Shown here: positions 4,779-10,484 of the stretch, piece after piece
How positions within the stretch are numbered: position 1 is the first letter of the stretch
How the letters are laid out: each line of letters begins with the position of its first letter
DNA from: Planctomycetota bacterium
GTDB taxonomy: Bacteria; Planctomycetota; SZUA-567; H5-PLA8
Direction of reading: 5' to 3'
Length of the DNA: 37,664 nt
NCBI GenBank assembly: GCA_026692735.1
Contig: JAPLOD010000044.1
Location: 1 to 37,664, forward strand
Notes under the pieces: model-generated
Told to the model about the DNA's origin: nothing
Seen by the model: only the letters and a program-made list of their open reading frames with translations
Databases searched by the model: none
Translations under genes and position numbers: made by a program

Positions 4779-4910
4779 ACGAGTCCCGCCTTACGAGACA
4801 CCTGAGATCGTCTCTTCTACGAGTGACTCTACTGTGAGGCCGGTAGCATGGTCAAGGGGAAAGGGAGCTGGAAATTATAACGGGGCGTGGCATTGAAGGT
4901 GCTGGGGGAG

Positions 4911-5001
4911 GATGCCGGATACCGGATACCGGATGCCGGATGCCGGATACCGGATGCCAGATGCCGGATACCAGATACCGGATGCCAGATGCCAGATGCC
5001 A
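4911..5001. repeat. Heptanucleotide array, 13 units of GATRCCR
   Basis: Thirteen uninterrupted 7-bp units fill 91 bp exactly. Every unit fits GATRCCR, with variation only at positions 4 and 7 (GATGCCG, GATACCG, GATGCCA, GATACCA). It lies between the divergent NfeD-like gene and the gene at 5052. It is followed by a segment (about 5002-5045) that recurs after the shorter copy at 5693-5720. Because 7 is not a multiple of 3, the array is open in several frames and creates spurious ORFs on the minus strand. Confidence 0.93.
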
Positions 5002-5051
5002 ACGCGCGGCGGTAGAGCGCGCGGGCGACGGGATGACTGAACGGTTACCAG

Positions 5052-5685: not shown

Positions 5686-5692
5686 CAGCCAA

Positions 5693-5720
5693 CATACCGG
5701 ATACCAGATGCCGGATGCCA
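5693..5720. repeat. Heptanucleotide array, 4 units of GATRCCR
   Basis: Four units (the first with C in place of G at its first base) of the same 7-bp repeat as at 4911-5001. As at the first locus, it is followed by GCGCGG-rich sequence and then GACTGAACGG (5752-5761 here, 5035-5044 at the first locus), so heptamers and downstream segment form one composite repeat. Confidence 0.85.
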
Positions 5721-5778
5721 AAGCGCGGGCCGGGGGTGCGCGGAGGATGGAACGACTGAACGGCTGCCGCACTCCACA

Positions 5779-6251: not shown

Positions 6252-8073
6252 GTGTTTCCGGTTGCCATGACACGCGCACGGCGTTTTGCCGTGCAAAGCC
6301 TGGGCTTGGCGCTTCTCCTGGCGTTGGGGTGGCGTTGTCATGGGCTGCACGGCGCGCCGCACGCCTGCATTTACTGGGCGGGATGGCTGGTCCTGGCCGG
6401 CTTGTGGTTGTGGTGCCTGCCGCTGCGCGCTCTGGCCGCGCGCTGGCGCATGGAGGCGCGCTTGCGAGCGGCACTGCCGGGCGCCGGCGGAGAGCTGAAG
6501 GGGCTGGTCGCCGCCGCCATGACCATCAAGCAGCAGCACGAAGAGCGCGCGCTGTACATCATTGAGAACCTTGCGGCTGCGCGCCGAGCCGCTGTTGCGC
6601 GAGCTGGCCGAAACGTCGTCGGCCGAGCTGGACGAATTGGCCCAGGACTACATCAGCCTGCTGGACGTGCTGGTGTCATCGCTGGGGGCGCCGGGGCCGG
6701 CGGGGGCGCCGTTCGCGTTCGAGGCCGAGGACCTGCTGGCGTTCATCACGGGGCGCACCTACGTGGTGGGCCCGCGCGAACGGTTCGGCATCTGGTGGCG
6801 GGCGACGCGGCCCATCCTGGTGCGCGGCGGCGGAGCGCTGCTGGTGGGCATGCGCCTGCTGCAGCGCGAGAGCTACGCCGAGGCGGCCAGGCTCCTGTCC
6901 GGCCTGGCGGAAGGCGGCCTCCTCTCGGCCGAGGCGGACACACTACGGCGCGCGGCGTCGTTCCTGGCGCTGTTCGCGAGGCCGCAGTGGCGCATGACCA
7001 GTGCGGACATTCCGCGCTACTTCACGGAAGGGCACTATTTCATGGCCCTGGAGATGGGCGTGCTGCGCTTCCCGACGGCGGGGCTGCCGGAGGTGACGAA
7101 CGCCTGCCGGACGGGGAAGATTCTGCGGGACAGCAAGCGGCGGCTGCTCGAGGACGCGCTGGCGCTGTGGGGGGTCTTCGACGCCGAACTGGCCCCGTTC
7201 CTCGCGCTGCTGCTCAAGCGCCTGCTCGAAGACAAAAGCCGCCATTGTCCCACGCGGGCCAGCTACTGGCGCCGGCAATGGGCCGAACGGCAGGCGTCGT
7301 TCGAGCAGCCGATAGCGCTGTTGATGGACGGCATCGTCGCGACGGCGGCCGGCCGTCTGGCCCAGGCGGCGCAGTTGTTCGAGGAAGCGGCGCGGCGGGA
7401 ACCGCACCTGAGCGTTCCGCTGATCAACCTCGTGTACGTGAAGCTTCAGGCCGGCAAAGTTGACGAGGCGCGGGCCCTGGCGCGCGTCATCGAGAGGCGC
7501 TTCCCCAAGGACGGCTACGCCTTCATCGCGCTCGGCCGGCTGTTTGCGACGCAGCTCGAAGACACCGCCGAGGCGGAGCGGCTGTTCCTCAAGGCCCGCG
7601 ACTTGACCGATCCGCCGACGGAAGCGCTGATCTGCCTGGGCGAGGTGAAGCTGATGGAGGGCCTCTACATGGAGGCCCAGGCGTACTTCGAGCACGCCCG
7701 GCAGGCCGATCCCGCGCTGCCCGATCCCAGGCTCGGCCTTGCCCGCACGTACATGGAGACGCGGAACTACAAGCACGCGATCGAGCACCTGGACGCGGTC
7801 GTCAAGAGCGGGCCCGACGAGGCCCGCGACATGGCCTGCTATCTCCTCTACCGGACGTACCGCGAGGCGGGGAACGACAAGCGGGCGTTCGAGTGTCTGG
7901 ACAAAGTCCCGCAGCGTTTCTTCACGGAGCCGGATATTCTGGACGACATCGCCGGCCATCTCGAGAGCGACCAGCAGTACGCCAAGGCGCGGGAGTTCGC
8001 CGTGCGCGCCATGATCCTGCGCGCCAGCGGCCAGGGACGCTCCAACGACGCCGACGCACTAAATGCGATGTGA
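6252..8073 (+). CDS. Membrane-anchored TPR protein, frameshifted near 6570
   Basis: Two overlapping reading frames make one protein. The first (from GTG 6252, with GGAGG nine bases upstream, or ATG 6267) encodes a basic start, two hydrophobic segments (about residues 14-30 and 38-60) and a helix ending in ERALYIIENL. The protein-like sequence then continues one frame over as RLRAEPLLREL from about 6571. Removing one T from AACCTTGCGG (6565-6574) would restore a single frame of about 606 residues. The rest is helical, with clear TPR units in the last 250 residues (GRLAQAAQLFEEAARREP, GLYMEAQAYFEHARQADP, TRNYKHAIEHLDAV). TPR proteins are scaffolds; the partner is unknown. If the frameshift is real, a TTG at 6562 could start a soluble 503-residue version. 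The last 31 codons are repeated at 8708-8801. Confidence 0.8.
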
Positions 8074-8082
8074 GGTATTCGG
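7980..8082 (+). repeat. 103-bp direct repeat, copy 1 (3' end of TPR gene)
   Basis: It covers the last 31 codons of the TPR gene, its TGA and 9 bp beyond. It matches 8708-8810 at 96 of 103 positions without gaps, at an exact offset of 728 bp. Confidence 0.95.
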
Positions 8083-8145
8083 CGGCGCAGAGCAGGCATT
8101 GGGTTCAGGGGGCCGGAGTCTGGGCTGCGGGCTATCGGGGCAAAT

Positions 8146-8406
8146 GTGCCAACGCTGTCACGCTTCTATGGCATCGTCATTCGCATGCGCTTCAACGATC
8201 ACGCGCCGCCGCATTTTCACGCCGTTTACGGAGAGTACGAATTGCGCGTGGGCATTTGGCCGGTTAAGATTCTAAGTGGGGAGGCGCCACCACGGGTGCG
8301 CTCGATGGTCTTGGAGTGGGCGGCGCTTCATCAAGAGGAGTTGCGGACCGCCTGGGGCCAGTGTCGCGTTGGCGAGGAGCCGACACAAATCGCGTCGCTG
8401 GAGTGA
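8146..8406 (+). CDS. DUF4160 domain protein
   Basis: An 86-residue protein that matches the DUF4160 pattern closely: MPTLSRFYGIVIRM at the start, then the HAPPHFHAVYGEYELRV core with conserved histidines (residues 19-33), and a C-terminal helix VLEWAALHQEELRTAW. The start is GTG at 8146-8148; the next in-frame ATG would remove the conserved PTLSRFYGI start. DUF4160 genes are very often followed by DUF2442 genes, as here with 19 bp between. The biochemical role is not established. Its compact pairing and patchy occurrence suggest a toxin-antitoxin-like or otherwise mobile module, which is inference. The pair sits between two copies of a 103-bp repeat. Confidence 0.88.
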   Translation: MPTLSRFYGIVIRMRFNDHAPPHFHAVYGEYELRVGIWPVKILSGEAPPRVRSMVLEWAALHQEELRTAWGQCRVGEEPTQIASLE

Positions 8407-8425
8407 CTCGCAAAGGGATGGGAAT

Positions 8426-8701
8426 ATGTTTCACGTTATCACCGCGGCTATTCCTGAACCGGGCTGCAAGGTTCGCCTGACCTTCAGCGATGGCACGAGC
8501 GGCCTTGCGGATTTTGCCCCCGTGGCGGTGCAAGGCGGCGTCTTTGCGAAACTGCGTGATCCGCAGTTCTTCGCACAGGTCACCATTGGCGACAGGGGCC
8601 GGTCCATCGAGTGGCCCGGGGAACTGGACTTCTGCGCCGACGCGCTGTGGCAGGAATGCCACCAGCGTGACGCGGTGCCAGCGAATGCCAAGGCTTCCTG
8701 A
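8426..8701 (+). CDS. DUF2442 domain protein
   Basis: A 91-residue protein with the DUF2442 layout: two N-terminal strands ending in VRLTFSDGTSGLADFAP (residues 17-33), a middle helix segment FAKLRDPQFFAQVTI, then the conserved end IEWPGELDFCADALW (residues 63-77). In many members a short basic tail follows. ATG at 8426, preceded by GGGATGGGA at a plausible distance. It is encoded directly after DUF4160 and is probably co-transcribed with it. Some DUF2442 proteins have a DNA-binding helix at the C-terminus; none is visible here. The gene ends 6 bp before the second copy of the 103-bp repeat. Confidence 0.87.
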   Translation: MFHVITAAIPEPGCKVRLTFSDGTSGLADFAPVAVQGGVFAKLRDPQFFAQVTIGDRGRSIEWPGELDFCADALWQECHQRDAVPANAKAS

Positions 8702-8707
8702 GTTGAC

Positions 8708-8810
8708 CGCCAGGGCGCGGGAGTTCGCGGTGCGGGCCATGATCCTGCGCGCCAGCGGCCAGGGACGGTCCAACGACGCCGACGCACTGAACGCGATGTG
8801 AGGTGTTCGG
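8708..8810 (+). repeat. 103-bp direct repeat, copy 2 (orphan TPR gene tail)
   Basis: Without a start of its own, this copy still encodes the last 31 residues of the TPR protein and its stop (8799-8801). Of the six coding differences from copy 1, five are synonymous and one changes Lys to Arg, so the two tails diverged while both were under protein-level selection. That is unlike a fresh duplication or a neutral relic. Confidence 0.93.
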
Positions 8811-8827: not shown

Positions 8828-8840
8828 CATTACGCCACGG
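8828..8840. repeat. 13-bp direct repeat, left edge of R-M island
   Basis: CATTACGCCACGG occurs here and again at 10507-10519, bracketing the two restriction-modification genes. At the right-hand copy, read on the minus strand, it is the last codons and stop of the small gene at 10509-10745. The left copy is therefore a stray piece of that gene's end. Confidence 0.7.
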
Positions 8841-8869
8841 ATACGCCCTCGCCAGGCGAGGGCGTATCC
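8839..8869. terminator. Perfect inverted repeat, possible terminator
   Basis: Arms of 15 bp (GGATACGCCCTCGCC and its complement) surround a single central A. The stem is strongly GC-rich, but no T-run follows on either strand, so it is not a standard intrinsic terminator. It sits just inside the left edge of the R-M island, 47 bp before the methyltransferase start. Confidence 0.5.
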
Positions 8870-8916: not shown

Positions 8917-9876
8917 ATGCTTGGCAACACTTACGGAATAACCGAATCCTTCGATCCAGAAGCACGCGCCGTGGTTTGGCCAGGGGACTGCCTGGACTTG
9001 CTCAGGACAATACCCACGGGGAGCATGCAACTCGTTGTCACGTCGCCGCCATATAATATTGGCAAGGAATACGAGAGGCGGCTCAAACTTGAGACGTACC
9101 TTGAACAGCAAGCCAAAGTTATAAGAGAATGTATCAGGGCTCTCTCGCCAAGGGGAAGCATCTGCTGGCAGGTGGGTAATTACGTTGACCAAGGAGCCAT
9201 TATACCACTGGATACGGTTCTTTACCCAATCTTCACAGAACGTGGGCTCAGGATGAGAAATCGAATCATCTGGCACTTTGAGCACGGTCTACACTGCAGC
9301 CGGAGATTCTCTGGCCGCTACGAAACCATAATTTGGTTCACGAAGTGCGAGGAATACACCTTCAATCTTGACCCTGTTCGCGTGCCCCAAAAGTATCCGG
9401 GCAAGAAGTATTTCAAAGGACCGAAGGCGGGGCAGTACTCATGCAACCCCCTGGGGAAGAACCCGGGCGATTTGTGGGTGATCCCGAACGTCAAAAGCAA
9501 TCATGTGGAAAAGACCAACCATCCGTGTCAGTTCCCCGTTGAATTGATCGAGCGATTGGTTTTGTCGCTGACGAACGAGGAGGATTGGGTTCTAGATCCA
9601 TTCCTCGGAACGGGCACAACAATTATCGCTGCGATTCGCCATGGACGGCGGGGTATGGGGGCGGATACCGTGCCAAAGTACGTCAAGTTAGCCCGAGAGA
9701 GGGTTCAACAGGAGATCGAGGGCAGTTTACAGACTCGCCCCATGAACAGGCCCGTCTACGACCCTGTTGAGGCGGGCAATAAGCTGACAGTTGCACCTTG
9801 GGATAGGAAAAGGACCGATTTGCAAACGGCGCTTTTCGAAGCACCCGCCAAGTATGGGAGAAAAGCAGCACGATGA
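8917..9876 (+). CDS. Type II DNA methyltransferase (beta-class, BstYI-type system)
   Basis: A 319-residue amino-methyltransferase. The catalytic motif TSPPYN (residues 43-48) precedes the SAM-binding motif DPFLGTGTT (about residues 227-235), the order of the beta class. An S/T-PPY motif is typical of N4-cytosine enzymes but is also seen in N6-adenine ones, so the modified base is not settled. It protects host DNA from the endonuclease encoded next. The stop codon overlaps the endonuclease start in ATGA (9873-9876), so translation is coupled. ATG at 8917 has no clear Shine-Dalgarno. The base composition is visibly less GC-rich than the neighbouring genes, which supports horizontal acquisition. 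Confidence 0.9.
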   Translation: MLGNTYGITESFDPEARAVVWPGDCLDLLRTIPTGSMQLVVTSPPYNIGKEYERRLKLETYLEQQAKVIRECIRALSPRGSICWQVGNYVDQGAIIPLDTVLYPIFTERGLRMRNRIIWHFEHGLHCSRRFSGRYETIIWFTKCEEYTFNLDPVRVPQKYPGKKYFKGPKAGQYSCNPLGKNPGDLWVIPNVKSNHVEKTNHPCQFPVELIERLVLSLTNEEDWVLDPFLGTGTTIIAAIRHGRRGMGADTVPKYVKLARERVQQEIEGSLQTRPMNRPVYDPVEAGNKLTVAPWDRKRTDLQTALFEAPAKYGRKAAR

Positions 9877-10484
9877 GGATCGCGGAAACGTATTCACACC
9901 TAAACGGTTTGGAATTCCTTCTCGTTCATAAGCCAACCCTGTGGAAGGAGATTCAAACTGTCGTCTCGGCGGTTGACGCGCAGAAGTGCAAGACCAAAGT
10001 TTCAAAAGAGAAAACAATGAAGGGAGAGTTGCTCTTCAGTCCGATTGAGATGAATGCCACATTCAAACGACTGCTTCGGGAAAAGTCATGGGAAGAGAGC
10101 CGCGTGAGTTACTGGGTGACCCGAAGCGAGAAGCTGATTCGAAAAACACTCACAATGCCAGCCGCCGAGCAGAAGAAAGAGATTGAGTGCGCCGGAGAGA
10201 AACCCATTTTCAGCTACAACCAAACGGATTTCGTTAAGGATCGTGTAGCCGTGGAAGTTCAGTTCGGAAAGTATGCCTTTGTGGCATACGATCTCTTCGT
10301 GAAGCACCTCGCCTTCTATGTAGGTGACCATATTGACCTGGGAATTGAGATTCTGCCCATGAAATCGCTCCAAAGCCAGATGAGTTCAGGAGTGGCCTAT
10401 TACGAGGGCGAGTTCTACAACGTTGTCAGGCAAGGCCGGGGCGTTCCAGCGGTCCCTCTGATTATCATCGGCCTCGAAGCCTGA
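9873..10484 (+). CDS. BstYI-family type II restriction endonuclease (predicted RGATCY)
   Basis: A 203-residue protein that I recognise as close to BstYI along its whole length: the N-terminal YSHLNGLE block, SKEKT (residues 44-48), SYNQTDFVKDRVAVEVQFG (about residues 110-128), the FVAYDLFVKHLAFYV block and a C-terminal YNVVRQGRGVP. The family (BstYI, BglII) uses a PD-(D/E)xK-type site; the D...ExQ pattern here (D118, then EVQFGK near residues 124-129) matches it. BstYI cuts R^GATCY, so that specificity is predicted but not shown. Length matches BstYI. It overlaps the methyltransferase by 4 bp. The island is bounded by 13-bp direct repeats. Confidence 0.9.
   Translation: MRIAETYSHLNGLEFLLVHKPTLWKEIQTVVSAVDAQKCKTKVSKEKTMKGELLFSPIEMNATFKRLLREKSWEESRVSYWVTRSEKLIRKTLTMPAAEQKKEIECAGEKPIFSYNQTDFVKDRVAVEVQFGKYAFVAYDLFVKHLAFYVGDHIDLGIEILPMKSLQSQMSSGVAYYEGEFYNVVRQGRGVPAVPLIIIGLEA

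Follow-up and report, generated by a model that had tools for sequence, protein, structure and literature searches.

How toxin-antitoxin (TA) pairs reach scattered single positions in bacterial chromosomes, where no mobile element is visible beside them, is the question raised by a locus on a contig of a Planctomycetota bacterium (JAPLOD010000044.1 of assembly GCA_026692735.1), of which we analysed a stretch of 37,664 bp, here called the window. A DUF4160/DUF2442 gene pair lies there between the 3' end of a gene encoding a TPR-repeat protein and a second, diverged copy of the same 3' end. The features of the locus are the following:

6252–8073, forward strand: TPR-repeat gene, the host target; the reading frame 6562–8073 is open and the N-terminal part from 6252 to approximately 6563 lies in another frame
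7980–8082, forward strand: tail 1, where the TPR gene ends; 94 bp are coding (stop codon included) and 9 bp follow
8083–8145, forward strand: spacer from tail 1 to the TA pair, unlike the sequence 3' of tail 2
8146–8406, forward strand: DUF4160 protein of 86 aa, putative toxin (PF13711, 64.9 bits, E 7.5e-18)
8426–8701, forward strand: DUF2442 protein of 91 aa, putative antitoxin (PF10387, 47 bits, E 3e-12)
8708–8810, forward strand: tail 2, the TPR 3' end again in diverged form, without a full gene attached
8838–8869, no strand assigned: near-perfect palindrome GGATACGCCCTCGCC/GGCGAGGGCGTATCC with 15-bp arms, ending in GGCGTATCC, 3' of tail 2
8917–9876, forward strand: DNA methyltransferase (N6_N4_Mtase) of a type II restriction-modification system, low GC
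9873–10484, forward strand: BglII-family restriction endonuclease (PF09195, 118 bits), low GC

The Repeated Gene End and Its Surroundings

Self-alignment of the window confirmed the recurrence on which a preliminary description of this DNA was built: tail 1 and tail 2 are identical at 96 of 103 bases, ungapped and at an offset of 728 bp, and weak similarity runs on to 8087 and 8815, respectively. The match has a blastn bit score of 155, compared with a maximum of 37.4 in 20 shuffled windows, and no third copy of the tail is present in the whole 9.1-Mb assembly (1014 contigs, 86% complete, 3.6% contamination). Six of the differences are coding, five of them synonymous and one a K to R exchange (position 7985), while the seventh is located 3' of the stop codon. 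Tail 2 starts 6 bp 3' of the DUF2442 stop codon. The palindrome behind tail 2 has no T-run and was therefore not scored as a terminator, and an Rfam search of the window gave no matches.

Compared to orthologues of the same family, the TPR gene is approximately 53 codons short, with a shift of frame at about 6564, and for this reason the upstream copy, complete as it appears, is not a clean full-length gene; either a real deletion or an assembly error accounts for the frameshift. In five genomes of the same family the TPR orthologue is single-copy and follows mazG in the same order, with 51–55% protein identity, no TA pair and a different downstream region.

Directly 3' of tail 2 lies a BglII-like type II restriction-modification system (8917–10484) that the preliminary description did not report, with a GC content of 50–53% compared to 69% for the TPR gene. 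Systems of this class are known for insertion with long target duplication; a third TPR tail 3' of this system was not found. The window further contains arrays of the 7-bp unit GGATRCC at 4897–5010 and 5686–5726, and CCCTGAACCCTGAA-type repeats are scattered elsewhere in the genome (loci L055 and L403).

The Cargo, a Putative Toxin-Antitoxin Pair of an Ordinary Kind

Both genes of the pair are intact, score above the Pfam cut-off, are co-directional and lie 19 bp apart. They are the sole genes between the tails and the unit encodes no recombinase. In keeping with the earlier description, the locus behaves like an insertion that brings a substitute for the end of its target gene. The window genome as a whole contains nine DUF2442 and six DUF4160 matches. 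Relatives of the window pair are found on plasmids of Thermus, Legionella, Vibrio and others, and the plasmid relatives of the DUF4160 protein, including that of Thermus, are 45–49% identical to it. In the module of a Thermus plasmid, the DUF4160 ORF proves toxic when the DUF2442 ORF is absent, and both together make the plasmid more persistent (PMC12724237); dhiTA of Dickeya is likewise a DUF4160/DUF2442 toxin-antitoxin pair (PMC8198452). The window pair shares with these modules the combination of domains and similar sizes, and with the Thermus module also the gene order, DUF4160 first and DUF2442 second; by analogy it may be an active TA module. It differs from them in that it is located on a chromosomal contig between two copies of a host-gene tail.

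The Arrangement Recurs Around Unrelated TA Families

The preliminary description had proposed a search for DUF4160/DUF2442 pairs bounded by tails of other genes, and such cases exist (L055, L085, L138, L073). Altogether, approximately ten other places were confirmed by hand in which a host gene is followed by a TA module and then by a diverged fragment of 43–644 bp of the end of the same gene. Three of them belong to the window genome (contigs C599, C400, and C14) and the remainder to other genomes and phyla:

C599/L055, 3' tail: lone DUF2442 gene preceded by a glycoside hydrolase gene and followed by a 55-bp copy of the hydrolase gene end
L085 (Acidobacteria), 3' tail: amidohydrolase gene, DUF4160/DUF2442
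L138 (Actinomycetota), 3' tail: acyl-CoA dehydrogenase gene, DUF4160/DUF2442
C400/L411 (window genome), 3' tail: HicAB, 644-bp copy
L287 and L200, 3' tails: HicA
L460, 3' tail: BrnT, host gene ending in ...PEVSKILMEFYRGK, 76-bp tail copy
C14/L403 (11720–15328), 3' tails: three stacked tails of a DUF58-like gene with a 1.77-kb unit, a PIN-domain pair lying between the second and the third tail
L073 (Calditrichaeota), 5' head: DUF4160/DUF2442
L281 and L313, 5' heads: HicA

The footprint thus surrounds four TA types, namely DUF4160/DUF2442, HicAB, BrnTA, and a PIN-domain pair. In all hand-checked cases the TA genes are co-directional with the duplicated gene, and in most of them the module ends within approximately 45 bp of the repeat and the copies are 5–17% diverged. 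In C14, the one clear case in about 580 kb of the window genome taken by contig number, the stop codon of the PIN-domain toxin lies inside tail 3, and tails 2 and 3 are identical at 48 of 49 bases. Of the DUF4160 loci, drawn from many phyla, 68 could be tested, and among these L085, L138, and L073 are the clean gene-end duplications. The repeat-positive loci L081, L149, L181, L308, and parts of L254 look intergenic or multi-copy and were left out of the clean cases. The clean cases are without exception from draft genomes; half of these or more are labelled metagenome-assembled genomes or are the 1014-contig assembly of the window. Around plasmid-borne DUF4160 loci flanking repeats were absent in nine of ten cases, while at the tenth, L519, the repeat is intergenic and not a gene end.

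The footprint is not confined to DUF4160/DUF2442 but is also found with HicAB, BrnTA, and the PIN-domain pair. An element specific to DUF4160/DUF2442 was rejected, HicA loci having gene-end repeats at least as often (8 of 78 in the automatic test).

Two further arrangements were noted. The background repeats found in GTDB loci include an insertion-like case at L123 (4203–5088), where BrnT/BrnA-like ORFs lie between two 136-bp repeats of 72% identity. At L446 (740–2047; C50 of the window genome) a methyltransferase-like gene, a non-TA cargo, stands between two 140-bp repeats of 83% identity that lie outside coding ends.

The automatic test found gene-end repeats at 17 of 262 TA toxin genes (DUF4160 8/159, HicA 8/78, BrnT 1/25) and at 4 of 986 background positions, one of which is C14 (p=5e-9). 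Non-TA genes had a single positive among 81 (ribosomal L20 0/29, acetyltransferase 0/27, 23S rRNA IVP 1/25), and the difference between TA and non-TA genes is not significant (p=0.085). The footprint is therefore enriched at TA modules over random positions, while its specificity in comparison with other accessory genes lacks significance. The automatic gene-end classifier sometimes takes a spurious ORF on the opposite strand (e.g., at L055 and L085), and the main list of cases was accordingly checked by hand; tblastx self-comparison for older repeats was too noisy in GC-rich DNA.

Did the Two Gene Ends Diverge Before They Met?

The preliminary description took the five synonymous among six coding differences as a sign that the tails had diverged under selection in separate genes before being joined. 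This argument is weak. Had the two tails started out identical, with the fragment evolving neutrally thereafter, approximately 56% of the differences should be nonsynonymous (range 0.55–0.59), and under this model no more than one nonsynonymous change among six, as in the window, has a probability of P ~0.06. Pooled over 12 hand-aligned tail pairs, the counts are 64 synonymous to 62 nonsynonymous; for purely allelic divergence we estimate an expected nonsynonymous fraction of about 0.2, so that the pooled value lies between the two models and nearer to identity at birth.

Prior divergence as such fares better than the argument first made for it. In C599 both copies stop at the homologous codon (NERTGTRR* and NERIGAGK*), and the same is true of C400 (CR*TGA and YR*TAA), in each case past the end of DNA similarity. 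This is not expected of a duplicate made from the local copy and favours two separately evolved gene ends, whereas the pooled counts lean the other way. Also on the side of separate ends, the hand-aligned coding tails, a subset chosen for clarity, contain neither gaps nor premature stops.

How the Pair May Have Entered the Gene End

As our leading but still tentative reading, we propose that the TA module was gained at the TPR 3' end without a recombinase, by homologous recombination on one side and an illegitimate joint on the other. DNA of a relative, in which the TPR 3' end had the TA pair just behind it, would have entered the cell and recombined homologously inside the TPR gene, while its other side would have been joined illegitimately a few bases 3' of the TA operon, within the terminal ~100 bp of the gene already there. 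The end that arrived would then have become tail 1, which keeps the stop codon of the gene, and the resident end would persist as tail 2, a dead remnant; addiction exerted by the TA pair may thereafter favour retention of the insert. In natural transformation, homology-facilitated illegitimate recombination combines one homologous with one illegitimate joint and leads to additive gain beside a homologous gene. To judge from its end state, the present locus would have arisen in a comparable way. The anatomy, its recurrence around four TA types, the closeness of the inserts to the host-gene stop and the shared reading direction are observed; which way the DNA was transferred, of what kind each joint was and what part addiction played are inferred.

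The closest competitor, which we regard as quite possible though less probable, is a strict long target duplication, in which a replication-based or illegitimate move copied about 100 bp of the target, so that both tails began as the same sequence and the unattached one has since decayed. Such insertion is the pattern of restriction-modification genes (Nobusato et al., 2000; Furuta et al., 2010; via PMC3874152, PMC3031569, PMC1643837), and it has much in common with the present locus: a small selfish or addictive module, a unit without recombinase, unrelated targets, and long direct target repeats flanking the insert, variable and of the order of 100 bp. In comparison with these accounts, the cargo here is a TA pair, the copies are mostly several percent apart, and what is repeated are gene ends, with the stop (or start) of the gene retained. 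The pooled substitution counts fit the fraction expected under such a duplication, and the near-identity of tails 2 and 3 in C14 speaks for it as well. Against it stand the homologous stops of C599 and C400, the counts of the window taken alone, and the scarcity of near-identical tail pairs, although short-read assembly could hide longer ones. We therefore slightly prefer two separately evolved ends brought together by one-sided recombination.

It was also suggested at the outset that two tandem TPR paralogues (or alleles) once stood here. A whole second gene would have come in, and all but its last 100 bp would have been deleted up to the TA pair, which could not be crossed without cost. The end state would be identical, and a deletion that halts at an addiction module fits the closeness of the right-hand joint to the end of the TA operon. 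However, among the five same-family genomes there is neither a second TPR copy downstream nor a complete second TPR gene, and most remnants measure 43–125 bp, although longer ones should be frequent after random deletion; we consider this course unlikely.

That an assembler fused two strain alleles from a metagenome bin into a chimera would suit the fragmented, slightly contaminated assembly and the allele-like appearance of the tails, but this is very improbable: the window contains no N, the joint at 8701/8708 offers no long shared overlap to an assembler, and unrelated genomes repeat the anatomy around other genes and other TA families.

Integrase islands settle in gene 3' ends, as SGI1 does in trmE (PMC8409611); the incoming copy replaces the target 3' end and the old end comes to lie at the far side, much as at the present locus, whose unit differs in its 728 bp, its lack of a recombinase and of a shared site, and its unrelated targets. 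A site-specific mini-element with the gene 3' end as attachment site and a recombinase acting in trans, for which one might cite this typical substitute 3' end and the recombinase genes adjoining several plasmid-borne DUF4160 pairs, is the least credible explanation, given unrelated target genes, joints without a common motif, repeats ranging from 43 to 644 bp and cases in which 5' ends are duplicated.

Significance

The observation at the TPR gene is confirmed, and its footprint is real and recurrent around ordinary cargo. Most likely, it represents a known kind of insertion with a different addictive cargo; restriction-modification and TA systems have addiction and apparent mobility in common (PMC2654758). 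No description of the pattern for TA modules was found in the literature searched, which left most subscription journals outside its scope. A broader proposal, which we consider rather doubtful, is that bare TA operons of several unrelated families are minimal mobile units that spread through chromosomes without a recombinase, use a captured host-gene end as homology anchor, and through addiction select for additive integration that leaves a duplication over allelic replacement.

Because the same arrangement is found around other TA families in other phyla, the data suggest that TA pairs settle in chromosomes by one-sided, recombinase-free insertion, a route hitherto described mainly for restriction-modification genes. 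The diverged gene-end duplicate around a pair is a footprint that can be searched for in strain collections and that shows the resident and the incoming allele side by side, and it would carry over to toxin-antitoxin genes a mechanism put forward for restriction-modification genes. Even if its cause is only generic one-sided recombination, it still marks events of gene gain.
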